Shown here piece after piece: positions 3,197 through 25,895 of a stretch of DNA of 27,421 bases (positions within the stretch are counted from its first letter, which is position 1; the number at the start of each line of letters is the position of its first letter). The translations under genes were made by a program, and so were the position numbers. Source of the DNA: an uncultured Collinsella sp. (GTDB lineage Bacteria > Actinomycetota > Coriobacteriia > Coriobacteriales > Coriobacteriaceae); NCBI GenBank assembly GCA_934630855.1, contig CAKTWW010000030.1, forward strand, positions 1 to 27,421, read 5' to 3'. Under the pieces are notes generated by a model, which worked only from the letters and a program-made list of their open reading frames with translations, ran no database searches and had not been told where the DNA came from.

Positions 3197-4463
3197 CTTA
3201 GAGGTCCTCGCGCCAGAAGGGCATGCTCATGCAGCGCGGGCCGCCGCGGCCGCGGGAGAGCTCGGCGGAGGGCACGACGAGAAGGTCCAGGCCCTCCTTG
3301 TACAGCACGTCGTTGGTGACGGTGTTGCGGGCGTAGACGCAGATCTTGCCGGGCTCGACGCACAGGGTGTTGGAGCCGTCGTTCCACTGCTCGCGGGAGG
3401 CCGCGATCGGGTCGCCGCCGCCGCAGGGGATCAGCTTGACCTGGTCGACGCCGGTGGCGTCCTCCAGGACGTGCTCGAGGGTGTCCTCGATCAGGCGGAT
3501 GTTCACGTCGCCCGGGTTCTTGCCGGCGGTCAGCTCGTAGACGCGCAGGGTGCCCATGATGGCGGGGTGGATCGTGAACTTATCGACGTCGATCTGGGTG
3601 AAGACCGTGTCGAGGTGCATGAAGGCGCGGGAGACCGGGATGTCGAAGGCCAGGATGCGCTCGACCTTGGAGTCGGAGTTCCAGAAGATGTTCTGGGCCA
3701 TGACGTCGATCGCGGCGGCCTGGGTGCGCTGGGAGATGCCGACGGCGAGGGTCTTCTCGTTGATGTTCAGCACGTCGCCGCCCTCGGTGTGGAACTGGCA
3801 GTCGCGGCGGAAGTACAGCGAGACGTCCTTGTAGTCGGGGTGGTACTTGAAGATGTACTTGCCGTACAGGGTCTCGCGGTTGCGGGTGACCGAGTACATG
3901 CGGTTGAGGTTGACGCCCTCGCCGACGACCGCGAACGGGTCGCGGGTGAAGTAGAGGTTGGGCATCGGGTCGATGATCAGGTCGGACTCGGACTCGGAGT
4001 TGACCAGGGAGTCGAGGGTCGTGGAGGCCGTGAGGGGCATCTCGATCTCGGACTTGGTCATGCCGGCCATGGTCTTCTTGACGAACTCGAGGTTGTCCTC
4101 GATGGAGTCCAGCTTCTCGCGGACGATCTGCGGCATGTGCTGGCCGCGGATGCCTGCCTCGGCGACGTACTGGTCGGTGAACTCGGCGCGGGCGCCGGGG
4201 ACCTGGTCGAACACCTCTGCGACGAGGTTCTCCAGATAGAGGACCTCCACGCCCTGGTCCCTCAGGATCTGGGCGAAGGTGTCGTGCTCCTGCTGTGCGA
4301 CCTCCAGGAACGGGACGTCGTCGAACAGGAGTCGCTCGAGCTCGTCGGGCGGCAGGTTGAGGAGCTCGTCGCCGGGACGGTGCAGGCAGACCTTCCTGAG
4401 CTTGCCGATCTCGGAAGGCACGTGCAGACCTTTCGTCATGGCCTCCTACCTTTCTTTCGGGCC
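3197..4463 (-). repeat. arcA duplication, copy 1 of 2
   Basis: This 1267-bp block reads as identical to 7769-9035 (offset 4572). It covers the whole arcA coding region, one base past the stop, and 24 bases upstream of the ATG including the Shine-Dalgarno. Identity breaks off sharply at both ends. All three forward-strand shadow frames inside also match exactly, consistent with base-level identity. Confidence 0.9.
3198..4439 (-). CDS. arcA: arginine deiminase, copy 1
   Basis: This 413-residue cytoplasmic enzyme hydrolyses arginine to citrulline and ammonia, the first step of the arginine deiminase pathway. The catalytic set of the guanidine-modifying superfamily is complete: FTRDP at 164-168 (Asp 167), EGGD at 219-222 (Glu 219), HLD at 275-277 (His 275, Asp 277), and nucleophile Cys 403 in the GGPRC motif. 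These align with the Pseudomonas enzyme's Asp 166, Glu 224, His 278, Asp 280 and Cys 406. Length is typical. The ATG at 4439 follows AGGAGG. The gene heads a leftward unit with OTC and a YfcC-type antiporter. It is base-identical to the copy at 7770-9011, which is unusual for paralogs with diverged flanks. Confidence 0.97.
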   Translation of the reverse strand: MTKGLHVPSEIGKLRKVCLHRPGDELLNLPPDELERLLFDDVPFLEVAQQEHDTFAQILRDQGVEVLYLENLVAEVFDQVPGARAEFTDQYVAEAGIRGQHMPQIVREKLDSIEDNLEFVKKTMAGMTKSEIEMPLTASTTLDSLVNSESESDLIIDPMPNLYFTRDPFAVVGEGVNLNRMYSVTRNRETLYGKYIFKYHPDYKDVSLYFRRDCQFHTEGGDVLNINEKTLAVGISQRTQAAAIDVMAQNIFWNSDSKVERILAFDIPVSRAFMHLDTVFTQIDVDKFTIHPAIMGTLRVYELTAGKNPGDVNIRLIEDTLEHVLEDATGVDQVKLIPCGGGDPIAASREQWNDGSNTLCVEPGKICVYARNTVTNDVLYKEGLDLLVVPSAELSRGRGGPRCMSMPFWREDL

Positions 4464-4590
4464 CTTGTCAGGGCCGATTCGTTAGCGCCCCTCCGTGTGA
4501 GGCGTTATTGCTGACGACATATTTATATCCAAAATCAGCTCATTCTTCCACCTTGCCCCCGAACGGTTTTTTATAGGGGGTGAACGGCAT
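4440..4590 (-). promoter_or_regulatory. arcA1 promoter and structured leader
   Basis: On the minus strand, a TATAAA -10 candidate (plus positions 4522-4527) is preceded by a poor -35 and by two CCGTTC boxes (plus 4561-4566 and 4582-4587) exactly 21 bp apart, at roughly -48 and -69 from the predicted start. The leader of about 75 nt carries a hairpin (4460-4465/4470-4475) just upstream of the AGGAGG ribosome site. The same arrangement precedes arcA2. The weak -35 with phased boxes suggests an activator-dependent promoter; the transcription start is inferred. Confidence 0.55.
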
Positions 4591-4925
4591 ACACATATAC
4601 TTCACGCATGGCACACTTTGTCTAAATAAAGTTTATTTACGTGCTTAAACGCGTTTTCAATCCCAAAATCGAATGGAACGAATCTTTGATAAACCACCCT
4701 CAAATTGCATATTTCCAATAAAGCTATGAATAGAATTAGCGATTCATACCGCGTCTCAACCATTTTCATTTTTATTCAGAAAAAAGTTTGTCCTATTCAT
4801 TTCTGGTAAACAACCAACCGTTTACCAGACACTTGATACCGTTCACCGGAAGCTCAGTATAAGGCCCAGCGGATACCGTCTCGCCTTGACGTCCTATTTG
4901 TAACAACTTGACTTCTCGGTATAGA
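4591..4925. other. AT-rich intergenic region with several inverted repeats
   Basis: No gene is supported. The region is much more AT-rich than its neighbours. It holds an exact 17-bp palindrome (TAAATAAA-G-TTTATTTA, 4623-4639), the inverted pair TATGAAT/ATTCATA at 4725-4731/4742-4748, and TCTGGTAAAC/GTTTACCAGA at 4802-4811/4820-4829. The TGAAT/ATTCA half-sites resemble ArgR boxes, but their 10-bp spacing does not fit the usual 4-bp spacing. These are candidate operators for the arginine genes. Confidence 0.45.
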
Positions 4926-4965
4926 AAAACAGACCCGCTCCCCTCGTGGGAAACGGGTCTGTTTT
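4926..4965. terminator. bidirectional terminator after the aminotransferase gene
   Basis: AAAACAGACCCG at 4926-4937 is the exact reverse complement of 4954-4965. The 12-bp stem carries a U-run on either strand. It sits about 50 bases past the stop codon of the leftward aminotransferase gene and ends the second arginine module. Confidence 0.85.
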
Positions 4966-5012
4966 CGATAATCATAGGCAGTTTTGAGCAGCCTTCGAGA
5001 GCCGTCGGGATC

Positions 5013-6137
5013 CTAGCGGTCAAACTCCGCCAGTGCCTCGCCCAAAAGCCTCAGTCCCTCGCGCAGGACGTCCTCGCTCGCGCAGTAGCCCAGGCGCGCG
5101 CCGCAGGGAAGCTCAAAGCGACTGCCGGGCACCAGCAGCACTCCCCTCTCGGCCAGCAGGCGCTTGCAGAACTCCTCGTCGTCCTCGGGGATATCCAGCT
5201 GGATAAACGAGGTGGACACGCCCTGCGGGGCCGTCCAGGAAACGCGATGCTGCGTGTCGATCCAAGCCTGCGCGATATCGCGGTTGCCAAACACGATTTT
5301 GCGGTTACGCTCGAGGATCTTGTCCTTATGCTCGAGCACATAGGTCGCCAGGGCGTCGTTGAACACGCCGCCGCAGATCATGGTGTAGTCGCGATAGGTG
5401 CGAATACGGTTGGAAACCTCTTCGTCTGCCACGACCCAGCCCACGCGGGCCGCAGGCGTCGAATAGGTCTTGGACACGGAGTTGGTGACGATGGCCTTCT
5501 CGTACACGTCAGCCATCGACATGAAGGCCTCGGTGTTCTCGAGCGGCAGGTACACCTCGTCGCACAGCACGTAGGCGCCCACCGAGCGGGCGATCTCGGC
5601 AATCTGGCCGAGCGTATCGGCATCGAGCACCGTACCGATGGGATTCGATGCGTTGTTAATGCAGATGAGCTTGGTGTTGGGGCGAACTAGGCGCTCGAGC
5701 TCCTCGATATCGGGCTTCCAGCCGAGCCCCTCGCGAAGCTCCCAGTACTCGACCTCGGCGCCCAGCGTGCGCGGAATCTCGTAGAGCGGCGCATAGGTGG
5801 GCCACTCGGCGATGACATGGTCGCCGGGCTCGACGACGGCCATGATGGCGTTGAGGTTCGCGCCCGTGCAGCCGTTGGTCTGCAGAATATGATCGGGGTT
5901 GACCTGGCGACGGTAGAGCTTGGCAACCTCCGCCTTAAAGTCGGGCGAGCCCTCGATCCAGCCGTAGTTCATCTTCTCGCGGTCCAGGCGCTCGTAGAAC
6001 GTGGCGCCGTCCTGCTCGTCGAGCGCGCGCAGCTCGCCCATGGTAAGCGACGAGATTGTCGACTGGGCGATATCCCACGTAGCGCTCTTCTCCCAAACGT
6101 TGAGCCACTCCTCAACGCCGATTGTCTTGATATCCAT
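5013..6137 (-). CDS. PLP-dependent class I/II aminotransferase-fold enzyme, ArcT-like
   Basis: This 374-residue protein has the fold-type I aminotransferase layout: SNPIG (the usual SNPTG) near residue 168, DEVY near 198, the PLP-lysine motif SVSKTYS near 224 with the following Arg-Val-Gly, and a C-terminal small domain. Start at ATG 6137 (MDIKTIG) is preceded by TTGGAG; the stop of the upstream antiporter is only 16 bases away, so the two are translationally linked. Some lactic acid bacteria carry a putative transaminase, arcT, within their arginine deiminase operon, and this gene sits in the equivalent context. The substrate is unknown; arginine, ornithine or citrulline are reasonable guesses. 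The same fold also includes PLP-dependent arginine oxidases (MppP/RohP type), so it need not be a transaminase. Confidence 0.85.
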   Translation of the reverse strand: MDIKTIGVEEWLNVWEKSATWDIAQSTISSLTMGELRALDEQDGATFYERLDREKMNYGWIEGSPDFKAEVAKLYRRQVNPDHILQTNGCTGANLNAIMAVVEPGDHVIAEWPTYAPLYEIPRTLGAEVEYWELREGLGWKPDIEELERLVRPNTKLICINNASNPIGTVLDADTLGQIAEIARSVGAYVLCDEVYLPLENTEAFMSMADVYEKAIVTNSVSKTYSTPAARVGWVVADEEVSNRIRTYRDYTMICGGVFNDALATYVLEHKDKILERNRKIVFGNRDIAQAWIDTQHRVSWTAPQGVSTSFIQLDIPEDDEEFCKRLLAERGVLLVPGSRFELPCGARLGYCASEDVLREGLRLLGEALAEFDR

Positions 6138-6153
6138 GGCTAGGCTCCAATCG

Positions 6154-7632
6154 CTAGAACACGGGGATGATGCCGGCAAAGGTCATGGGAATCGAGATGA
6201 TGCCCAGGATGGCGATAACGACCGCGCAGATGACCTGGCCCTTGTCCATGGACTGACCGGACTCGGAGAGCGCCTTGCGATAGAACAGGAAGCCGGGGAT
6301 ATAGCCCAGGCAAGCCAGCAGCAGGAAGCCCCAACCGGTAAAGAGTACGCCCACGACCTGGAACACCAGGGCAAGGATACCGATGAGCATCTGGCCCGTC
6401 TCGCCGCGCTCGCGGGAGAACTTAACCTGGTATGCCGCTGCGTAGGCCCAGGTGACGACGATGGTCACGGTGCACATGGAGATGGCGAAGGTGTAGGCGT
6501 CGGCGGCAAACGTGGCGATGATGATGAATGCCTCGGTCAGGGCACCGACGATGATCAGTGCCATCTGCGGAGCGCCCTTGGCATTGACCTCGCCCCACGA
6601 CTTGGGCAGCAGGCCGTGATCGGCCATCATCGAGGAAGCCTCGGCGGGAAGCATGGTAAAGGACAGCCAGGAGCCGCACACCGAAATGATGATGGCCCAG
6701 GAAATGAAGGCGCCGCCCCAGCCGGGAGCAAGCTGCTCGAACACGGTGATGGTGGCGGGCTTGGGAGCCGCGACCAGGTCGGCGTAGTCCACAACGCCAT
6801 ACGGAATGACGGAAGCGCCGATATAGAGGGTCAGCAGAACGATCAGGCCGATGATGGTGGCGGAGCCGACCTCACTCTTGCGCTTGGCGCGACCGGACAT
6901 GACCGAAGCGCCTTCGACGCCGATGAAGACCCACATCATGATGAGGATGCACTGCGTGACCTGGTTGGCAACGCTTCCGAGCTCAGCATCGTTCGCGGCG
7001 ACGATCGTGGCGTTGCGCGCAGCGGTACCCCAGAAGTCGGCGGTGAACACGCCGGCGTTAAAGGCAAAGCAGGAGAACGCGATGAACAGCAGGATGGAGG
7101 CAATCTTGATGACCATGACGATCGCGTTGAATGCCGCAGCGCTCTCGACGCCGCGAATGACCAGGAAGGTGATGCCCCACAGGACAAGCGACACGACAAC
7201 GACGCCGACGACGGCGGGGTTACCGGTCACAGGATCCGAGAACACGCCCGGCATGATCGTGCCCAGACAATAATCGGAACCCAGAACCTGGGCGATCATG
7301 GTGCCAAAGCCAACATTGCCGAGCCAGGCCGAAAGCCAATAGCCCCAGCCCGAGATAAATCCATGGAAGGGGCCAAAGCCCTCCTCGGCATAGGCGCAGG
7401 CGCCATCGAGATCGGGGCGCTTGGAGCCAATGTTGGCGAGCGAGAGCGCCAGCATCAAAAAGCCCAGGCCGCAAACGACCCAAGCGACGAGTGCGGCACC
7501 GGGGGAAGCGACGTTAGCGAGCTGACCGGTCAGAGCGAACACGCCCGTGCCGATGCAGGAGGAAACGACCATGCCGACAAGGCCAAAAAAGCCGACACCG
7601 TTGGGGTTGTCGACGTGACTGTCTTTAGACAT
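6154..7632 (-). CDS. arcD: APC-family basic amino acid antiporter
   Basis: This 492-residue inner-membrane protein has about twelve to thirteen hydrophobic segments. It matches the basic amino acid/polyamine antiporter (ArcD/ArcE) branch of the APC superfamily. The first membrane helix has the typical SSCIGTGVFAL motif near residue 25, and a second conserved segment, GVEGASVMSGRAKRKSEVG, lies near residue 245. Start at ATG 7632 (MSKDSHVDNPN) is preceded by AAGGTGG; the 14 codons upstream are not conserved in character. It lies between arcA2 and the aminotransferase gene. Arginine uptake in exchange for ornithine or citrulline is inferred. It is unrelated in fold family to the antiporter at 476-1954, so the two arginine modules use different transporter types. 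Confidence 0.92.
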   Translation of the reverse strand: MSKDSHVDNPNGVGFFGLVGMVVSSCIGTGVFALTGQLANVASPGAALVAWVVCGLGFLMLALSLANIGSKRPDLDGACAYAEEGFGPFHGFISGWGYWLSAWLGNVGFGTMIAQVLGSDYCLGTIMPGVFSDPVTGNPAVVGVVVVSLVLWGITFLVIRGVESAAAFNAIVMVIKIASILLFIAFSCFAFNAGVFTADFWGTAARNATIVAANDAELGSVANQVTQCILIMMWVFIGVEGASVMSGRAKRKSEVGSATIIGLIVLLTLYIGASVIPYGVVDYADLVAAPKPATITVFEQLAPGWGGAFISWAIIISVCGSWLSFTMLPAEASSMMADHGLLPKSWGEVNAKGAPQMALIIVGALTEAFIIIATFAADAYTFAISMCTVTIVVTWAYAAAYQVKFSRERGETGQMLIGILALVFQVVGVLFTGWGFLLLACLGYIPGFLFYRKALSESGQSMDKGQVICAVVIAILGIISIPMTFAGIIPVF

Positions 7633-7678
7633 AACGGCCACCTTATCTGTTGTTAATTTAGCGTCAATAAACAAGTTT

Positions 7679-7706
7679 GGGGCGGTGCGAAAACCCGCAC
7701 CGCCCC
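7679..7706 (-). terminator. stem-loop between arcA2 and the APC antiporter gene
   Basis: GGGGCGGTGCG at 7679-7689 pairs perfectly with 7696-7706, leaving a 6-nt loop. On the minus strand it is followed by AAACTTGTTTATT, a mediocre U-tract. It probably attenuates or processes the transcript rather than ending it fully, since no clear promoter is seen in the 137-bp gap. Confidence 0.6.
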
Positions 7707-7768
7707 AATGGGAGACATCTAATGGCAGCTAGATGTGTGTTTTAAGACCTGTACGGGTCCTTGAAGAC

Positions 7769-9035
7769 CTTAGAGGTCCTCGCGCCAGAAGGGCATGCTC
7801 ATGCAGCGCGGGCCGCCGCGGCCGCGGGAGAGCTCGGCGGAGGGCACGACGAGAAGGTCCAGGCCCTCCTTGTACAGCACGTCGTTGGTGACGGTGTTGC
7901 GGGCGTAGACGCAGATCTTGCCGGGCTCGACGCACAGGGTGTTGGAGCCGTCGTTCCACTGCTCGCGGGAGGCCGCGATCGGGTCGCCGCCGCCGCAGGG
8001 GATCAGCTTGACCTGGTCGACGCCGGTGGCGTCCTCCAGGACGTGCTCGAGGGTGTCCTCGATCAGGCGGATGTTCACGTCGCCCGGGTTCTTGCCGGCG
8101 GTCAGCTCGTAGACGCGCAGGGTGCCCATGATGGCGGGGTGGATCGTGAACTTATCGACGTCGATCTGGGTGAAGACCGTGTCGAGGTGCATGAAGGCGC
8201 GGGAGACCGGGATGTCGAAGGCCAGGATGCGCTCGACCTTGGAGTCGGAGTTCCAGAAGATGTTCTGGGCCATGACGTCGATCGCGGCGGCCTGGGTGCG
8301 CTGGGAGATGCCGACGGCGAGGGTCTTCTCGTTGATGTTCAGCACGTCGCCGCCCTCGGTGTGGAACTGGCAGTCGCGGCGGAAGTACAGCGAGACGTCC
8401 TTGTAGTCGGGGTGGTACTTGAAGATGTACTTGCCGTACAGGGTCTCGCGGTTGCGGGTGACCGAGTACATGCGGTTGAGGTTGACGCCCTCGCCGACGA
8501 CCGCGAACGGGTCGCGGGTGAAGTAGAGGTTGGGCATCGGGTCGATGATCAGGTCGGACTCGGACTCGGAGTTGACCAGGGAGTCGAGGGTCGTGGAGGC
8601 CGTGAGGGGCATCTCGATCTCGGACTTGGTCATGCCGGCCATGGTCTTCTTGACGAACTCGAGGTTGTCCTCGATGGAGTCCAGCTTCTCGCGGACGATC
8701 TGCGGCATGTGCTGGCCGCGGATGCCTGCCTCGGCGACGTACTGGTCGGTGAACTCGGCGCGGGCGCCGGGGACCTGGTCGAACACCTCTGCGACGAGGT
8801 TCTCCAGATAGAGGACCTCCACGCCCTGGTCCCTCAGGATCTGGGCGAAGGTGTCGTGCTCCTGCTGTGCGACCTCCAGGAACGGGACGTCGTCGAACAG
8901 GAGTCGCTCGAGCTCGTCGGGCGGCAGGTTGAGGAGCTCGTCGCCGGGACGGTGCAGGCAGACCTTCCTGAGCTTGCCGATCTCGGAAGGCACGTGCAGA
9001 CCTTTCGTCATGGCCTCCTACCTTTCTTTCGGGCC
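7769..9035 (-). repeat. arcA duplication, copy 2 of 2
   Basis: This block is base-identical to 3197-4463. Outside it, the 3' flank is unrelated. The 5' flank is related but clearly diverged (shared -10, CCGTTC boxes and leader hairpin). An identical core inside older, diverged flanks is the signature of gene conversion. Confidence 0.9.
7770..9011 (-). CDS. arcA: arginine deiminase, copy 2
   Basis: The 413-residue product is identical to the copy at 3198-4439, with all catalytic residues present (Asp 167, Glu 219, His 275, Asp 277, Cys 403). The ATG at 9011 follows AGGAGG. This copy heads a leftward unit with an APC-type antiporter and an aminotransferase-fold enzyme but no ornithine carbamoyltransferase. 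It could therefore feed an arginine-to-citrulline route, with citrulline exported or passed to the OTC made from module 1. Differential expression through its diverged promoter, rather than a different enzyme activity, must explain why both copies are kept. Confidence 0.97.
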   Translation of the reverse strand: MTKGLHVPSEIGKLRKVCLHRPGDELLNLPPDELERLLFDDVPFLEVAQQEHDTFAQILRDQGVEVLYLENLVAEVFDQVPGARAEFTDQYVAEAGIRGQHMPQIVREKLDSIEDNLEFVKKTMAGMTKSEIEMPLTASTTLDSLVNSESESDLIIDPMPNLYFTRDPFAVVGEGVNLNRMYSVTRNRETLYGKYIFKYHPDYKDVSLYFRRDCQFHTEGGDVLNINEKTLAVGISQRTQAAAIDVMAQNIFWNSDSKVERILAFDIPVSRAFMHLDTVFTQIDVDKFTIHPAIMGTLRVYELTAGKNPGDVNIRLIEDTLEHVLEDATGVDQVKLIPCGGGDPIAASREQWNDGSNTLCVEPGKICVYARNTVTNDVLYKEGLDLLVVPSAELSRGRGGPRCMSMPFWREDL

Positions 9036-9162
9036 TTACTGGCCGAATGTATCAGCGCCCCTCCATATGGGACGCTGCTTGCTGACAGCTCTAGTTATAT
9101 CCAATTTCCATTCGCAATGCCACCTCGCCCCCGAACGGTCAGCAAAGTACGATGAACGGTAT
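9012..9162 (-). promoter_or_regulatory. arcA2 promoter and structured leader
   Basis: On the minus strand a TATAAC -10 candidate (plus 9094-9099) follows a poor -35. CCGTTC boxes lie at plus 9133-9138 and 9154-9159, again exactly 21 bp apart and at the same distance from the -10 as at arcA1. The block 9120-9138 matches 4548-4566 at 18 of 19 bases. A GGCC/GGCC hairpin (9032-9035/9041-9044) occupies the same place as the arcA1 leader hairpin although the sequence has changed. Confidence 0.55.
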
Positions 9163-9560
9163 ATCGCATATGATTTCCCATGATGCACTTCAGTTTCGTA
9201 AAGCAGATTTTCCTAGGTAAACGTTATTTTTCTAGGAAATCAAGATTGAACACTCAAAGTTATCCATGATTCAAAATTGCATAGCGAAAACGGTTTTCTG
9301 CATATAAATGACGCTTGCCATCGATTCGACCTACATTCGATTATATTCAGCTTGTTATCATTCTTATTCATATATTCTCACCAGTTGAGTGAGGATATAG
9401 ATCGCTTGCTCAATACACCGGACGTTAGTTCTTCGGTTCGTCAGCGTTAGAAGTAGGTAAAGATACCGTTCGCGCGATACGTCCGCCCCATAGGTCGACT
9501 AAATTGAGACAATAGTGAATAGAGTTAGGCTACCGTCCCTTGCGGGGACTGAACGGACAG
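9163..9560. other. AT-rich divergent intergenic region between arcA2 and ppk1
   Basis: No gene is supported. It separates the leftward arcA2 from the rightward ppk1 and must hold the ppk1 promoter, which I could not fix. An inverted repeat TTTCCTAG/CTAGGAAA (9209-9216/9232-9239) is a possible operator. GATACCGTTC at 9462-9471 repeats a 10-mer at 4835-4844 upstream of arcA1. A CAAA(A)TTGCATA stretch near 9272-9283 also resembles one near 4701-4710, suggesting that the whole upstream region was once duplicated. Confidence 0.5.
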
Positions 9561-12125
9561 ATGCATATGCCGAGCAAAATCGAAAAGAAGCAAGCCGCCG
9601 CAAAGCGTCGCAAACCGCCGCGCGACTTCTCGTACACGCAGAACCGAGAGCTTAGCTGGCTGCGCTTTGACAACCGCGTGCTCGACGAGGCCTTCGATGA
9701 GTCCGTGCCGCTGTTCGAGCGCCTTAAGTTCGTCTCGATCTTCGAGTCCAACCTCGACGAATTCCTTATGGTGCGCGTGGGCGGCCTGTCCGACCTGGCC
9801 GAACTCAAAAAGCAACCCGTCGACAACAAGAGCAATATGACCGCCTCGGAGCAGGTCGAAGCCGTCGTGGCAGAGCTGCCCGGGCTCCTCGACCGCTGGG
9901 AGTCCATTTTCCAGAGCATCGAGGGCAAGCTCGACGCCCTGGGCGTTCACCGCGCGCGCGTCGATTCACTCACGCCCGAGGAGCGCACCTTTGTCACCCG
10001 TTACTTCCAGGCCTACGTGTCGCCGGTCATCTCGCCGCTGGTGATCGACCCGCGCCACCCCTTCCCCAACCTGCGCAACGGCGCACTCTACCTGGCCTGC
10101 GGCCTGGACGGCGTCACCGACGAGGAAAGCCTGCTGGGCCTCATCGAAATTCCCGCCTCGATGAACCGCGTGGTCGAGATTCCCTCGCCCACCGGAACCT
10201 ACTCCTACATTCTGCTCGAGGACGTCATCCTCGCCTGTCTGGACAGCTGCTTTGGCTCCTATAAGCCGCTCGACCGCGCGCTCATCCGCGTCACCCGCAA
10301 CGCCGACATCGATCCGGACGGCGAGGGCGTCGAGGAGGAAGAGGATTACCGCCAGCACATGAAGCGCATCCTCAAGAAGCGCCTGCGCCTGCAGCCGGTA
10401 GTACTCGCCGTTTCGGGCTCGCTCGAGAAGCAAACGCTCAAGACCATCCGCAAGGCGCTCGAGCTTTCGCGCCGCTCGGTCTTTACCTGCGATATCCCGC
10501 TCAACCTGGGCTACGTCTTTGGCATTGAGGGCAAGATCCCCGAGCACCTGCGCAACGAGTTGCTCTTTACGCCGTTTAAGCCGCAGCCCAACCCCACCAT
10601 CGACATGACTCGCTCCATCCGCGAGCAGGTGCTGCAGCACGACAAGCTGCTCTTTTATCCCTACGAGGCCATGAACCCGTTCCTGGACCTGGTGCACGAG
10701 GCCGCCTACGACCCCGAGTGCATCTCGCTGCGCATCACACTCTACCGCGTGGCCAAGCAGAGCCGCCTATGCGAGTCGCTGATCGATGCCGCCGAGAACG
10801 GCAAGGAGGTCACGGTGCTCATGGAGCTCCGCGCCCGCTTTGACGAGCAGAACAACATCGAGTGGGCCGAGCGTCTGGAAGAGGCCGGCTGCACCGTCAT
10901 CTACGGCTCCGAGGGCTTTAAGTGCCACTCCAAGATCTGCCAGCTCACCTATCGCGAGGGCATGGCGCTTACACGCCTGACGCTTTTGGGCACCGGCAAC
11001 TTTAACGAGAAGACGGCCAAGCTCTACAGCGACTTTATGCTCATGACCGCCCATCCCGGCATCGGCGAGGACGCCAACCTGTTCTTCCGCAACCTGTCGC
11101 TGGGCAACCTGCGCGGCGATTACCGCTTCTTGGGCGTGGCGCCCGTGGGCCTCAAGCCGCTCATCATGCGCGGCCTGGACCGCGAGATTCAGCGCGCCCT
11201 TGCCGGCGAGCCCGCCCGTGTGTTCTTTAAGCTCAACTCGCTCACCGACCGCGAGGTCATCGACAAAATCGCCGAGGCATCGTGCGCAGGAGTCCGCGTA
11301 GACATGATCATCCGCGGCATCTCGTGCCTCAAGCCGGGTGTTCCGGGCAAGACCGAGAACGTGCACGTCCGCTCTATCGTCGGGCGCTTTTTGGAGCATG
11401 CGCGCGTTTACGCCTTTGGCGTGGACTCGGACATGATCTACCTGAGCTCGGCCGACATGATGACGCGCAACACCGAGCACCGCGTGGAGATCGCCTTCCC
11501 CGTGCTAGACCCCACCTGCCGTGCCCTGGTGCACGAGTACATGGGCATGCAGCTGCGCGACAACGTAAAGGCCCGCAGCCTCACGAGCGACGGCACCTGG
11601 GTTCCCGTGGAGCGTGCAGAGGGCGAGAAGCCTTTCAACTCACAGGAAGCCCTGCTGGAACGTGCCTATCGCAACGCCGAGGCCGCCGCGCAGCAGCGCG
11701 CGCAGGAAAAGAAACGTGTGGCCGAGGAAGCTATTCAGGCCGAGCTTGAGCGCGAAGCAGCCGTCGAACCTGTTGCCGAGCCGGAGGTTGTCGTCGCTCC
11801 CCCGGCGGCAGAACCCGAGCCTGTCGAGGAGCCGGAGCCCGTCGTCGAGACGGAGCCCGTCACCGCCCCTGCTGCCAAGCCCGAGCCGCAGCCGGCAGCG
11901 CCCGAGGTCCAGAAGGTCCAGGCGACCGTTATCGAGCCCGAGTCCGAGTCTGTACCTCAGCCCGAGCCGCAGGTCGCCAAGCCCGCACCCGAGACGAGCG
12001 CCCGTCGCGATAAGCCCGCCGGCAAGACCAAGGCCATCGAACGCCATCGCCCCGGTCGCGTGCGCATGGGCCTGGGCCTGATCGGCCTGGGTCTTAAGAC
12101 GCTCATTACCGGCAAGACGAAATAG
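9561..12125 (+). CDS. ppk1: polyphosphate kinase 1 with a Pro/Glu-rich C-terminal extension
   Basis: This enzyme reversibly transfers the gamma-phosphate of ATP onto polyphosphate. Residues 1-695 or so cover the N-terminal, head and two catalytic domains of the Ppk1 family. The autophosphorylated histidine is His 456 (CHSKICQL) and the second catalytic histidine is His 613 (EHARVYAFG). Their spacing of 157 equals that in E. coli (435 and 592). Beyond residue 700 it adds about 155 residues not normal for Ppk1: an Ala/Glu/Lys-rich probable coiled coil, a long Pro-Glu-Val-rich segment, and a basic tail ending in GLGLIGLGLKTLITGKTK. The start is taken as ATG 9561 (MHMPSKIEKK); ATG 9567 and TTG 9540 are alternatives, and the ribosome site is weak. 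It stands alone with its own terminator. Confidence 0.95.
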   Translation: MHMPSKIEKKQAAAKRRKPPRDFSYTQNRELSWLRFDNRVLDEAFDESVPLFERLKFVSIFESNLDEFLMVRVGGLSDLAELKKQPVDNKSNMTASEQVEAVVAELPGLLDRWESIFQSIEGKLDALGVHRARVDSLTPEERTFVTRYFQAYVSPVISPLVIDPRHPFPNLRNGALYLACGLDGVTDEESLLGLIEIPASMNRVVEIPSPTGTYSYILLEDVILACLDSCFGSYKPLDRALIRVTRNADIDPDGEGVEEEEDYRQHMKRILKKRLRLQPVVLAVSGSLEKQTLKTIRKALELSRRSVFTCDIPLNLGYVFGIEGKIPEHLRNELLFTPFKPQPNPTIDMTRSIREQVLQHDKLLFYPYEAMNPFLDLVHEAAYDPECISLRITLYRVAKQSRLCESLIDAAENGKEVTVLMELRARFDEQNNIEWAERLEEAGCTVIYGSEGFKCHSKICQLTYREGMALTRLTLLGTGNFNEKTAKLYSDFMLMTAHPGIGEDANLFFRNLSLGNLRGDYRFLGVAPVGLKPLIMRGLDREIQRALAGEPARVFFKLNSLTDREVIDKIAEASCAGVRVDMIIRGISCLKPGVPGKTENVHVRSIVGRFLEHARVYAFGVDSDMIYLSSADMMTRNTEHRVEIAFPVLDPTCRALVHEYMGMQLRDNVKARSLTSDGTWVPVERAEGEKPFNSQEALLERAYRNAEAAAQQRAQEKKRVAEEAIQAELEREAAVEPVAEPEVVVAPPAAEPEPVEEPEPVVETEPVTAPAAKPEPQPAAPEVQKVQATVIEPESESVPQPEPQVAKPAPETSARRDKPAGKTKAIERHRPGRVRMGLGLIGLGLKTLITGKTK

Positions 12126-20569: not shown

Positions 20570-21748
20570 CTAGTTGTTCTTGGTCAGGCGCTCGACGTCG
20601 TGGGCGATCATGTATTCCTCGTCGGTGGGGATGACCATGACCGTGACAGCGGAGCCGGCAGAGCTGATGACCTGCGGGCCGTTGCCCACGGCCTCGCGGT
20701 TCTTGTTGTTGTCGATGCGGACGCCCAGCCACTCAAAGCAGTCGCAGAAGGCCTTGCGAATCGACCAGTCGTTCTCGCCGATGCCGGCAGTAAAGGTAAT
20801 GGTGTCCACGCCCGCCATGGAGGCGATCATGGAACCGGCCTGCTGCATGGCCTTGTAGGCAAACATGTCAAAGGCGAGCAGGCAGCGCTCGTCGCCCTCG
20901 GAGGCGCGCGTACGGATGTCGCGGGCGTCGTTGGAGATGCCCGAGATGGCAAGCAAGCCGGACTGCTTGTTCATCATATCGTCGACTTCCTGATAGCTAT
21001 AGCCACCCTCGCGCTGCAGGTAGCACACGGTGGCCGGGTCGATGGAACCGCAACGGGTGCCCATCATCAGGCCGTCGAGCGGCGTGAGGCCCATCGTGGT
21101 ATCGCGGCACACGCCGTCCTCGATGGCAGCGAGCGAGGCGCCGTTACCCAGATGGCACGACAGCAAACGGTGGCAGCGCGTGCCCAAGATCTCCTTGGCC
21201 ATCATCCACTCGTAACGGTGGCTCGTGCCGTGGGCGCCGTACTTGCGCACGTGGTACTTGTCGCACACGTCCTTGGGCAGGGCGTAGGTGTAGGCGACCT
21301 CGGGCATCGTCATATGGAACGACGTGTCGAAAACGGCCACGTTGGGCAGCTCCGGATACTTCTCGCGGCAATACTCAATTGCTGCGGCCTCGCCGTAGTT
21401 GTGCAGCGGGGCAAGCGGCGCCACCTCAAGGATCTTGGCCATGACCTCATCGTCGACGACCGCGGAATCATCGAAGTACCAGCCACCCTGAACGATGCGG
21501 TGACCGATGCCATCGATCGTAAAGTCAGTCTTCTCGAGTTCCTCGAGTACGCGCGCGATGGCAGAGCGGTGGTCGGGGAAAGGAATCTCCTCGGTCTGCT
21601 TGGCGCCACCGTTCTCGGAGTGGCCAAAGATGCCCATCTCCGAGCCGATACGCTCGCAGTTGCCCTTGGCAAAAACCTCTCGGGTATCGGTATCCAAAAG
21701 CTGATATTTAAGGCTCGAGCTGCCGGCGTTGACAACAAGTACGTTCAT
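20570..21748 (-). CDS. ackA: acetate kinase, paralog 1
   Basis: This 392-residue enzyme moves phosphate between acetyl phosphate and ADP to give acetate and ATP. The ASKHA-fold signature NAGSSSLKYQ starts at residue 7. The conserved stretches GHRIVQGG, FDTSFH, YGAHGTSHRY, CHLGNGASL, MGTRCGSIDP and the late PTDEEYMIA are in the normal order. Two substitutions stand out: the usual VVHGGE reads IVQGGW, and the usual TRSGDIDP reads TRCGSIDP. Both are shared with the paralog downstream. ATG 21748 has GAAGGAGTC. It has its own promoter candidate and terminator and lies 165 bp from the second copy. A propionate- or butyrate-type specificity cannot be excluded. Confidence 0.93.
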   Translation of the reverse strand: MNVLVVNAGSSSLKYQLLDTDTREVFAKGNCERIGSEMGIFGHSENGGAKQTEEIPFPDHRSAIARVLEELEKTDFTIDGIGHRIVQGGWYFDDSAVVDDEVMAKILEVAPLAPLHNYGEAAAIEYCREKYPELPNVAVFDTSFHMTMPEVAYTYALPKDVCDKYHVRKYGAHGTSHRYEWMMAKEILGTRCHRLLSCHLGNGASLAAIEDGVCRDTTMGLTPLDGLMMGTRCGSIDPATVCYLQREGGYSYQEVDDMMNKQSGLLAISGISNDARDIRTRASEGDERCLLAFDMFAYKAMQQAGSMIASMAGVDTITFTAGIGENDWSIRKAFCDCFEWLGVRIDNNKNREAVGNGPQVISSAGSAVTVMVIPTDEEYMIAHDVERLTKNN

Positions 21749-21812
21749 GAGACTCCTTCGTGATTACAGTACGGTCGGCAAACCCATAAGGCGGCCGTAT
21801 CCTTAATAAGAA

Positions 21813-21841
21813 GTTATCAGAATTCAATAAATAACTATCAA
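21813..21841 (-). promoter_or_regulatory. promoter candidate for ackA paralog 1
   Basis: On the minus strand TTGATA (plus 21836-21841) is followed after exactly 17 bp by GATAAC (plus 21813-21818), matching the -35 at five and the -10 at four of six positions. It lies about 65 bases upstream of the ATG in an otherwise AT-rich gap. Confidence 0.4.
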
Positions 21842-21862
21842 ACTCTTCGCCCAAAGAGCGTA

Positions 21863-21902
21863 AAAAGGGGGCTGAACGGCACAAGACCGTCCAGTCCCCT
21901 TC
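21863..21902 (-). terminator. terminator of ackA paralog 2
   Basis: AAGGGG at the left pairs with CCCCTT at the right, with further CTG/CAG and ACGG/CCGT pairs inside and a CACAAGA loop. On the minus strand the stem ends in a TTTTTACG run. It separates the two acetate kinase genes, so they are probably not one simple transcript. Confidence 0.75.
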
Positions 21903-21913
21903 TCCTGCGTCAA

Positions 21914-23092
21914 TTACTTGCCGTTGACGATGCGCTCGACGTCGGAAGCGATCATGAACTCCTCGTCCGTGGGGATGACGAAGATCTTGACCTTGGAATC
22001 CTTGGCGGACAGGCACCAAGCGCCGTCGCCACGCAAGGCATTGCGGGCATGGTCCATCTTGACGCCCATAAAGGCCAGACGGTCGGCCACGCCGGCGCGG
22101 ACAGCCGGGGCGTGCTCGCCGATGCCCGCGGTAAAGACGAGCGTGTCCATTCCGCACATGGAGGTAGCCATCTCGGCGGCCTTGGCGGCAATCTTGTAGA
22201 CGAACATATCGAAGGCGAGCTGAGCGTCGGGGTCGCCGGCGGCAGCGAGCTCCTCGACGTTGCGGCAGTCGTTGGTCTTGCCACCGGTCACGGCCATAAG
22301 GCCGGACTTCTTGTTCATCATTTCGTCGACCTCGTCGAAGGTGTAACCACCCTCGCGCTGCAGGTAGCAGACGGTCGCCGGGTCAATGGAGCCGCAGCGG
22401 GTGCCCATCATGACACCGTCGAGCGGGGTGAGGCCCATGGTGGTGTCCATGCACTTGCCGTCCTCGATGGCGCACAGGGAAGCGCCGGAGCCGATGTGGC
22501 ACACGACGACCTTACGGGCCTCGCCGTTGGTCATCTCGGCGACCTTCTTGGAAATGTAGCGGTAGCTGGTGCCATGAGCGCCGTACTTACGGATGTGAAG
22601 CTTCTCGCAGACGTCCTTGGGCAGGGCGTAGGTCTTGGCGACCTCGGGCATGTTGAAGTGGAAGGCGGTGTCGTAGACCGTGACGTTGGGCAGGTCGGGA
22701 TACTGCTCCAGGCAGTACTCGATAACGTTGGCCTCAGGGTTGTTGTGCAGCGGAGCCAGCGGAGCGACCTCACGGATCTTGGCCAGAACGTCCTCGTCGA
22801 CAAGAGAAGAATCGCCAAAGTACCAGCCGCCCTGAACGATGCGGTGGCCGATGCCCTCGATCTTGACGCCGTTAGCCTCGAGGTCCTTCAGGACGACCTC
22901 GATGGCGACCTTGTGGTCGGGGAACTCGATGTTCTCGGTCACCTTCTTGGAGCCGTTGGCAGCGTGGGTGAAGGTACCGCCGGTAAAGCAGACGCGCTCG
23001 CAGGAGCCCTTTGCGGACACCTTGTGGGACTTGGTATCGATGACCTGATACTTAAGGGTCGAAGATCCTGCGTTGACGACCAGAACGTTCAT
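21914..23092 (-). CDS. ackA: acetate kinase, paralog 2
   Basis: This 392-residue paralog is clearly homologous to the neighbouring gene along its entire length, with identity of roughly 60 percent by eye. It shares the unusual IVQGGW and TRCGSIDP segments. The signature NAGSSTLKYQ, YDTAFH, CHIGSGASL and PTDEEFMIA are present. One further difference is HGTSY where the family normally has HGTSH; the first His of the motif is kept. Charged residues and internal loops differ most at residues 30-70. ATG 23092 has AGGGAGAC. Same-strand tandem paralogs point to an old duplication with divergence in regulation or acyl specificity. Confidence 0.93.
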   Translation of the reverse strand: MNVLVVNAGSSTLKYQVIDTKSHKVSAKGSCERVCFTGGTFTHAANGSKKVTENIEFPDHKVAIEVVLKDLEANGVKIEGIGHRIVQGGWYFGDSSLVDEDVLAKIREVAPLAPLHNNPEANVIEYCLEQYPDLPNVTVYDTAFHFNMPEVAKTYALPKDVCEKLHIRKYGAHGTSYRYISKKVAEMTNGEARKVVVCHIGSGASLCAIEDGKCMDTTMGLTPLDGVMMGTRCGSIDPATVCYLQREGGYTFDEVDEMMNKKSGLMAVTGGKTNDCRNVEELAAAGDPDAQLAFDMFVYKIAAKAAEMATSMCGMDTLVFTAGIGEHAPAVRAGVADRLAFMGVKMDHARNALRGDGAWCLSAKDSKVKIFVIPTDEEFMIASDVERIVNGK

Positions 23093-25784: not shown

Positions 25785-25895
25785 GGGTAGTCTTTTTGGG
25801 ACGGGGCTTTTTTGACTACTTTTTCGCAAACGCAAGCGCTCGGTGAGCCGTCGCCAAAGGGGAGTCAAAAAATCCCCGTCCCAAAAAGACTACCC
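25785..25895. repeat. 111-bp palindromic element with 33-bp arms
   Basis: Positions 25785-25817 and 25863-25895 are reverse complements at 32 of 33 bases. Each arm contains TTTTTGGGACGGGG and a second run of six T/A. The 45-bp centre has no strong stem. It lies between xseB and the HIT gene and would terminate on either strand. Its arm sequence is shared in part with the element at 14048-14103, which suggests a repeat family rather than a one-off terminator. Confidence 0.85.

Follow-up and report, generated by a model that had tools for sequence, protein, structure and literature searches.

The two arginine deiminase (arcA) genes in a 27,421-nucleotide (nt) stretch of DNA from an uncultured Collinsella species (contig CAKTWW010000030.1; the whole stretch is called the window here) are identical base for base, and we have found that they very probably result from an old duplication with ongoing gene conversion between the copies. 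In addition, the silent substitutions and the base composition of the pair lend moderate support to the view that this conversion is biased towards G and C.

Probable conversion between the two arcA copies

Exact comparison of positions 3197–4463 with 7769–9035 gives 1267 equal bases out of 1267 and 0 mismatches, which bears out the claim of an earlier note on this DNA that the two stretches agree even at silent positions. The edges it named, 24 nt 5' of the ATG and 1 nt past the TAA stop, are exact as well, as extension of the match in either direction gains 0 bases. The length of the match rules out chance. Both blocks lie on the minus strand and each contains an open reading frame (ORF) of 413 amino acids, i.e., arcA1 or the 'dn' copy on the argF side (coding sequence, CDS, at 3198–4439, plus a 24-nt leader with a Shine-Dalgarno motif) and arcA2 or the 'up' copy on the ppk side (CDS at 7770–9011, plus a 24-nt leader). 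The product is the arginine deiminase ArcA (TIGR01078, 495.9 bits against a cut-off of 489.1, residues 5–412). This curated family score, together with the clustering with an ornithine carbamoyltransferase gene and an arginine-ornithine antiporter-like gene, is in keeping with arginine deiminase function for both genes. The leader and promoter regions just beyond the blocks (4464–4663 for arcA1 and 9036–9235 for arcA2, minus strand) are not homogenised, and each clusters with the same position in other genomes.

Among 43 Collinsella genomes, two full arcA copies are present in 13, and one more (G019) has two copies with undetermined bases (N) inside. One copy of the pair type was found in 2 of the 43 (G004 and G034), while arcA appears merely as pieces at contig ends in 4 (G001, G006, G012 and G020). 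Another 19 genomes carry one copy that is 76–89% identical, two have no match, one has only a diverged paralogue, and one has only an 82-residue piece. The nearest named relatives by ArcA (99–100% identical) are Collinsella aerofaciens, plus Collinsella without a species name. Over the 14 pair-bearing genomes, the window included, the 3' identity edge lies 1 nt past the stop in all 14, and the distance from the 5' edge to the ATG is 24 nt in 13 genomes and 95 nt in the remaining one (locus L111). The two CDSs of a genome differ at 0 sites in ten genomes, at one site in three, and at seven sites in one; for the 9 of the 14 without N in leader and tail, there are 0 differences in eight and one difference in the ninth.

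Independent evolution since the duplication would group the copies by position; the CDSs group by genome, which therefore indicates conversion. Over the 28 copies, 39 CDS sites are variable; 29 of these are equal between the copies in all 14 genomes and 0 are fixed by position, and at each of the remaining 10 the copies differ in a single genome (locus L125 accounts for 7). An approximately unbiased (AU) test rejects a clade of the upstream copies with p = 3.3e-5, where 10 sets of identical rows were left free and two of the four outgroup loci were dropped from the tree and the test. In addition, the window differs from each of the 13 other pair genomes at 9 to 19 bases (upstream copies), and all of these differences are common to both window copies. 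Counted as silent changes, this means 0–1 within a genome vs 7–12 for the window against the 13 others (upstream copies). It is these genome-specific changes common to both copies, and not the identity alone, that demonstrate conversion.

The leaders, on the other hand, group by position. Over −224 to −25, in the ten N-free genomes (four N-bearing ones were dropped), identity between genomes is 0.914 for up against up and 0.935 for dn against dn, whereas up against dn gives 0.741 within a genome and 0.735 between genomes. The earlier note had described the leaders as related but diverged and the duplication as old with a homogenised core; the median leader identity of 74% within a genome agrees with the former, and the grouping of leaders by position and of CDSs by genome with the latter. 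It had also named positional grouping at silent sites in sister genomes as the result that would speak against its view, and the opposite was found. Since the same pair with the same edges occurs in 13 of the 43 genomes and the leaders hold positional orthology, the duplication occurred before the Collinsella aerofaciens-like species diverged.

The sharp identity edges in 14 of the 14 pair genomes, together with one chimeric leader, are visible tract boundaries. The chimera is the argF-side leader of L111: its 95 nt adjoining the gene are of the up type, and after a short word common to both types it continues as dn-type. This reads as a tract that overran the gene, the ppk-side copy being the donor; it is a single case, and the other flank there is N-scaffolded. 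The aminotransferase gene between the copies shows a synonymous divergence (dS) of 0.34, i.e., it is an old intervening gene and a silent clock between the two arcA copies.

Overall, both arcA genes stem from one old duplication, before the split of the Collinsella aerofaciens-like species, and recurrent non-reciprocal recombination (intrachromosomal gene conversion) within the 1267-bp matching stretch very probably holds the copies identical, presumably by RecA-type homologous recombination. The flanking leaders, tails and neighbours are too diverged for efficient pairing, and they evolve independently of each other.

Assembly collapse, in which one gene is read twice or two diverged genes are given one consensus, had been offered as an alternative in the earlier note. 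Practically, several assemblies do break or hold N at arcA, with the gene at contig ends in G001, G006, G012 and G020 and N at it in G005, G007, G009, G010, G011 and G019. However, the window contains no N and the flanks of its two copies differ, and the same pair is found in the one-contig genome G003 (0 differences) and in the 3-contig genomes G024 (0 differences) and G002 (one difference), which leaves collapse with hardly any credibility. Repeated loss followed by fresh re-duplication in each species would likewise yield young, similar copies without conversion. Two genomes, G004 (L121) and G034 (L123), have a single arcA that directly adjoins ppk on one side and argF on the other, and neither genome gives a match to the aminotransferase gene at E ≤ 1e-50; it is possible that this state reflects a loop-out deletion between the copies, or that the loop was omitted in assembly. 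But re-duplication would renew the leaders, which hold positional orthology across species, and the intervening aminotransferase gene is old, so we regard this route as extremely improbable. Two observations do weigh against conversion. Few CDS sites are variable, and the argument rests on 39 columns. L125 shows seven differences between its copies (six non-synonymous and one silent) with an N-scaffolded leader, where the divergence possibly comes from strain mixing in the assembly.

Silent substitutions and base composition of the pair

Between genomes, arcA is nearly frozen at silent sites. The median dS is about 0.02 for arcA, while it is 0.10 for argF, 0.09 for yfcC, 0.26 for ppk and 0.34 for the aminotransferase gene; in the same 14 genomes, it is 0.017 for arcA vs 0.046 for elongation factor Tu (EF-Tu). 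The non-synonymous divergence (dN) of arcA between species is fairly low. There are thus few silent changes to copy, which therefore accounts for part of the identity between copies. The inference of ongoing conversion from silent identity in the earlier note holds as far as conversion is concerned, but the identity itself is in part a matter of slow silent change.

A feature that the earlier note had not remarked on is the GC content at third codon positions (GC3), which is 0.97–0.98 in the converted arcA. We have compared arcA with 153 other ORFs, sampled from G003 and G002 over about 200 kb of each genome (with arcA, 154 distinct ORFs, among which a few short antisense ORFs remain; ORFs were dropped if dN was above 0.6 dS where dS exceeded 0.02), and its GC3 of 0.981 stands against a maximum of 0.908 and a median of 0.774. 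As far as the sequences compared can tell, the high GC3 and the slow silent sites go with the pair, not with the gene. In eleven single-copy Collinsella loci (L035–L039, L041–L043, L053, L128 and L129), GC3 of arcA is 0.82–0.93, and in the ten of these with argF it is not above that of argF. The arcA/argF ratio of dS has a median of 1.57 (range 1.09–2.67) over 55 pairs of single-copy loci (nine Collinsella, one Slackia and one Candidatus Limicola; one of 12 loci was dropped for having no argF), vs 0.21 in 118 of 120 pairs of the aerofaciens-like complex (two were dropped with argF dS not above 0.03); divergence is deeper in the single-copy outgroup pairs than in those of the complex, and dS is compared here as ratios only. 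Furthermore, arcA exceeds argF in GC3 by +0.096 to +0.133 in 20 rows of the complex and by +0.065 in G291, a genome of another family, while the 57 other rows have a median difference of −0.015 and a maximum of +0.061, so that G291 is ahead only narrowly (rows with both genes present and GC above 0.5; some species enter twice, and two of the complex rows contain a single arcA). The maximum of +0.061 is shared by three rows, whose titles place them in Bacteroidales.

Silent C–G changes should behave differently under codon selection, under a sweep and under GC-biased conversion, and can therefore discriminate between these three. At four-fold degenerate sites in 16 genomes, 11 arcA sites are variable between C and G and 10 between A/T and G/C, while the numbers are 6 and 60 for argF, 6 and 91 for yfcC, 36 and 158 for ppk, and 23 and 80 for the aminotransferase gene (14 genomes). 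For arcA against the four neighbours, this is 11:10 vs 71:389 (Fisher 1.6e-4); with the nine N-free pair genomes only (five N-bearing and two single-copy genomes dropped), it is 10:8 vs 64:343 (p = 2e-4). The C–G rate per genome pair is 0.0125 in arcA, 0.0105 in argF and 0.0085 in yfcC. By comparison, the A/T–G/C rate of arcA (0.0123) is about six-fold below argF (0.077) and yfcC (0.076), and ten- to twelve-fold below ppk (0.127) and the aminotransferase gene (0.152). Between G003 and G002, C–G changes are found at 3/206 arcA sites (0.0146) and at 385/20,532 sites (0.0188) of 144 control ORFs with dN below 0.6 dS (9/153 dropped), while A/T–G/C changes are found at 1/212 and 3174/28,209 sites, respectively. 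That silent A/T–G/C changes are suppressed and C–G changes are not fits GC-biased gene conversion between bacterial paralogues, an explanation that we hold to be moderately probable.

The direction of change is consistent with this. On the stem of the complex, fixed changes to G/C vs to A/T are 8:1 in arcA and 2:41 in the four neighbours (Fisher 5e-7; 9 ingroup loci, with outgroup loci numbering 10 for arcA, 9 for argF, 9 for yfcC, 6 for ppk and 5 for the aminotransferase gene). As GC content is higher in most outgroups than in the complex, this alone would favour changes to A/T, and arcA runs opposite.

A recent sweep of one arcA allele across the species, with all copies young, would also give the low dS and the fairly low dN between species. 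But a sweep would lower all classes of change, whereas the C–G rate of arcA between G003 and G002 is near that of the control ORFs, and the aminotransferase gene between the copies is old; we consider this history quite improbable. A more serious alternative is that arcA is very highly expressed and that strong selection on its codons for translation is enough to give low dS and high GC3, with conversion being incidental. Some translational codon selection is evident, as arcA has the highest codon adaptation index (CAI) against the highly expressed set (0.846, the next being 0.791) and, in Val, Ser and Thr, shares the preference of this set for C over G. However, highly expressed genes retain T-ending codons (GCT.29, CGT.36, GGT.25, GTT.22), and arcA has dropped them (GCT 0/25, CGT 1/24, GTT 0/36, TCT 0/18 and GGT 1/27, i.e., 2/112 for Ala, Arg, Gly and Val). 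Such a loss is what the relevant passages of Lassalle et al. (PMC4450053) predict for GC-biased conversion. Moreover, the highly expressed EF-Tu gene shows 1 C/G-variable vs 29 A/T–G/C-variable sites in 14 genomes (Fisher 7e-5 against arcA), with 3:25 for its adjoining ORF, and the highly expressed set as a whole has few C–G changes between G003 and G002 (4/1033, or 0.0039, vs 3/206 in arcA). Nine of the 11 C/G-variable arcA sites belong to the Val, Ala and Ser codon families, in which highly expressed genes favour C, and the single-copy loci examined have neither high GC3 nor slow silent sites (dS ratio 1.57 vs 0.21). Codon selection alone is therefore an unlikely, though not a negligible, explanation. 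Concerted evolution may instead double the effective strength of weak codon selection, as expected in theory when two copies share changes, with no GC bias in conversion. This accounts for a change that appears only with the pair, but it should also slow C–G changes, and none of these is slowed relative to argF, yfcC or the genome sample; we rate it as slightly less likely still.

A second pair comes from a class-wide search for arcA pairs in 396 genomes. Among the matches listed, at least 33 genomes outside the genus have two or more arcA matches, and copies were compared from 9 of those 33, which were chosen for near-equal scores and available coordinates rather than at random. A near-identical pair was found in G291 alone, while the closest copies in the other eight are 85–91% alike and serve as controls. 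The two arcA genes of G291 (same order, other family; one contig) lie on opposite strands with 533 kb between them. They are 99.25% identical over 1203 nt, the flanking stretches compared show no likeness, and their GC3 values are 0.963 and 0.970 vs 0.898 for argF. A search of its genus (4 genomes) gave G284, with two contigs each ending inside arcA (513 nt shared, 5 differing sites, GC3 1.000 and 0.988), and the single-copy G152, whose one complete arcA has a GC3 of 0.884 vs 0.929 for argF (difference −0.045); the fourth genome, G077, has no arcA match at E ≤ 1e-60. In the last 510 nt of arcA, G291 and G284 have 5 and 4 differences within the genome and 19–22 between genomes. Their four-fold sites show 9 C–G and 2 A/T–G/C changes in arcA (11 and 2 for the other copies), against 3 and 31 in argF plus yfcC (9:2 vs 3:31, Fisher 1.2e-5). 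Judged by these counts, the independent pair has the same contrast between C–G and A/T–G/C changes as the Collinsella pair.

We therefore favour, with some reserve, a conversion in which G/C variants tend to replace A/T variants; such a bias would push GC3 to 0.98 and would suppress A/T–G/C substitutions, but not C–G ones. The bias is suggested by the pattern of composition and substitution, not by observed single tracts, and we think it somewhat probable. It seems fairly plausible, to the same degree, that on two independent occasions in Coriobacteriia strongly GC-biased conversion has given arcA a new base composition.

Several points weigh against GC bias. A dS as low as that of arcA is found in 10/153 other ORFs, or in 2/144 of those with dN below 0.6 dS. 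The C–G rate of ppk and the aminotransferase gene is 0.037–0.038, so that arcA is three-fold lower, and within G/C-ending codons arcA leans to C like highly expressed genes. One arcA without a near-identical partner (L194) has a GC3 of 0.935 in a 59% GC region. The A/T-ending codons of arcA make up 15% of codons 1–20, 7% of codons 21–60, 0–3% in the bins beyond and 0% of the last 20, i.e., they are concentrated towards the 5' edge with no such excess at the 3' edge, which is only half of what an edge effect predicts; 5' gene ends often carry A/T-ending codons for other reasons. Between G291 and G284, the total arcA dS of 0.11–0.14 is not below that of yfcC (0.14) and is above that of argF (0.023), and there are only two independent lineages, the second found among nine hand-picked genomes. 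A local change of mutation bias would give the same contrast between C–G and A/T–G/C changes as biased conversion. In Mycobacterium tuberculosis paralogue pairs, GC content is no predictor of conversion frequency according to passages of a preprint (PMC13061034), which address a different question. Overall, codon selection alone, a sweep, assembly collapse and re-duplication are each ranked below conversion.

The arcA cluster and other features of the window

In the order of transcription, the cluster consists of arcA2 (9011–7770), an arcD-like gene (7674–6154), an aminotransferase gene (about 6137–5013), a leader, arcA1 (4439–3198), argF (about 3098–2103) and a yfcC-like gene (1981–476), all on the minus strand. 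The arcD-like gene resembles arginine-ornithine antiporters (TIGR03810, 475.2 bits, below the cut-off of 591). The gene between the arcA copies encodes a pyridoxal phosphate (PLP) aminotransferase of the PRK07324 family (NF005593, above cut-off); its ORF spans 5013–6179, and its start is probably near 6137, with most relatives matching from about residue 12. The control genes are argF/arcB for ornithine carbamoyltransferase (TIGR00658, 402.7 bits, above cut-off), whose start was set at an internal ATG of an ORF listed up to 3182, a YfcC-like basic amino acid transporter gene (NF008611, 206.9 bits, below the cut-off of 500), and the polyphosphate kinase gene ppk at 9540–12125 on the plus strand (TIGR03705, 712.5 bits, above cut-off), which diverges on the outer side and marks the outer edge of the cluster.

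The arcD-like gene is intact in the window and lost in the 13 other pair-bearing genomes, with three breakpoint patterns (9, 2 and 2 genomes). Given these separate patterns of loss, we infer that the window retains an older state of the cluster with arcD. In the four single-copy relatives examined, the gene order is arcA-argF-yfcC, and one of the single-copy relatives, G016 (L129), has arcA-argF-yfcC-arcD-aminotransferase. The pair probably originated from tandem duplication of such a five-gene cluster followed by complementary losses. As for argF itself, its product is 88% identical to that of the window in Slackia, where ArcA is 79% and YfcC 60% identical; it is 84–85% identical in G284 and G291 and 67% in their congener G152 (argF loci L044, L213, L215 and L212). 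These values suggest argF transfer between families.

Some candidates were not accepted. Third-copy arcA pieces in G005, G010 and G011 lie beside N runs and look like scaffold joins rather than remnants, as does a 25-residue piece in G009, and the 'half' arcA genes in G019 contain N runs. Loss of the aminotransferase gene in G001, G006, G012 and G020 was not accepted either, since arcA is at contig ends there. Further arcA-like genes, 55–58% identical to that of the window, occur elsewhere in G009, G011, G019 and G024. In G192, two arcA copies (L193 and L194) are 85% alike, with GC3 of 0.794 vs 0.935 in regions of 50% and 59% GC.

Both arcA leaders (4440–4553 and 9012–9125, minus strand) may form predicted hairpins. 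At 3/17 predicted pairs, at least one sequence is changed on both sides with pairing retained (12 leaders, 6 genomes), and the hairpins may be a regulatory leader common to the diverged promoters; the Rfam scan of the window found no family at its gathering score. At 20570–23092 there are two tandem genes, putatively acetate kinase-like by their sequence, 76–80% alike over the repeated stretches and with GC3 of 0.837 and 0.858; they are a neighbouring duplicate without homogenisation or rise in GC. Two 72-nt direct repeats, 90% alike with starts 74 nt apart, lie at 72–217 beyond the yfcC-like gene, and an inverted repeat with 43-nt arms (88% complementary) and a 25-nt loop lies at 25785–25895.

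Comparison with known systems

GC-biased gene conversion is well known in animals and disputed in bacteria. In mammals, converting gene families such as histones and Hsp70 show paralogue conversion with a rise in GC3; these are eukaryotic cases. By title and abstract start, none of the matches listed in our literature search, which reached few subscription papers, concerned GC-biased conversion between bacterial paralogues, and none of those listed for Collinsella with arginine deiminase was about arcA duplication. In work on rheumatoid arthritis, counts of the Collinsella aerofaciens arginine deiminase have been inferred from 16S data (PMC7230781), and arcA copy number therefore matters there.

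Like the arcA pair, tufA and tufB of Salmonella are nearly identical to each other, measure about 1.2 kb and have different surroundings, and intrachromosomal conversion keeps them homogeneous. Passages of PMC5485169 report that conversion there is far lower near the gene end in repair-proficient strains (1e-5 at nt 679 and 2e-8 at nt 1126, the latter by a different assay). Unlike tufA/tufB, arcA encodes a catabolic enzyme and not a translation factor, its copies are 4.6 kb apart in direct orientation, and it shows an extreme GC3 and the contrast between C–G and A/T–G/C changes. Long-lasting concerted evolution has been described for 26 prokaryotic genes (PMC6053082), whose paralogues are closer within than between species, as in arcA; 'arca', 'arginine deiminase', 'gc content' and 'biased' are mentioned 0 times in its main text. 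The work on M. tuberculosis paralogues resembles ours in that conversion between bacterial paralogues is studied from complete genomes, but its passages describe GC content as a predictor, not base composition as an outcome as in arcA.

A pair that overwrites itself at a known place, with single-copy relatives, makes the question of GC bias in bacteria directly testable at one locus. If our interpretation is true, the arcA pair is a natural experiment that separates GC-biased conversion from codon selection in bacteria, where single-copy relatives serve as the control and C–G changes as the internal clock. The passages of Lassalle et al. 2015 (PMC4450053) report that recombining bacterial genes are enriched in GC-ending and depleted of AU-ending optimal codons. 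Those passages concern recombination of core genes, with 'paralog' and 'duplicat' occurring 0 times in the main text of the study, whereas in the arcA case a gene recombines with its own duplicate on the same chromosome and the single-copy relatives provide the control.

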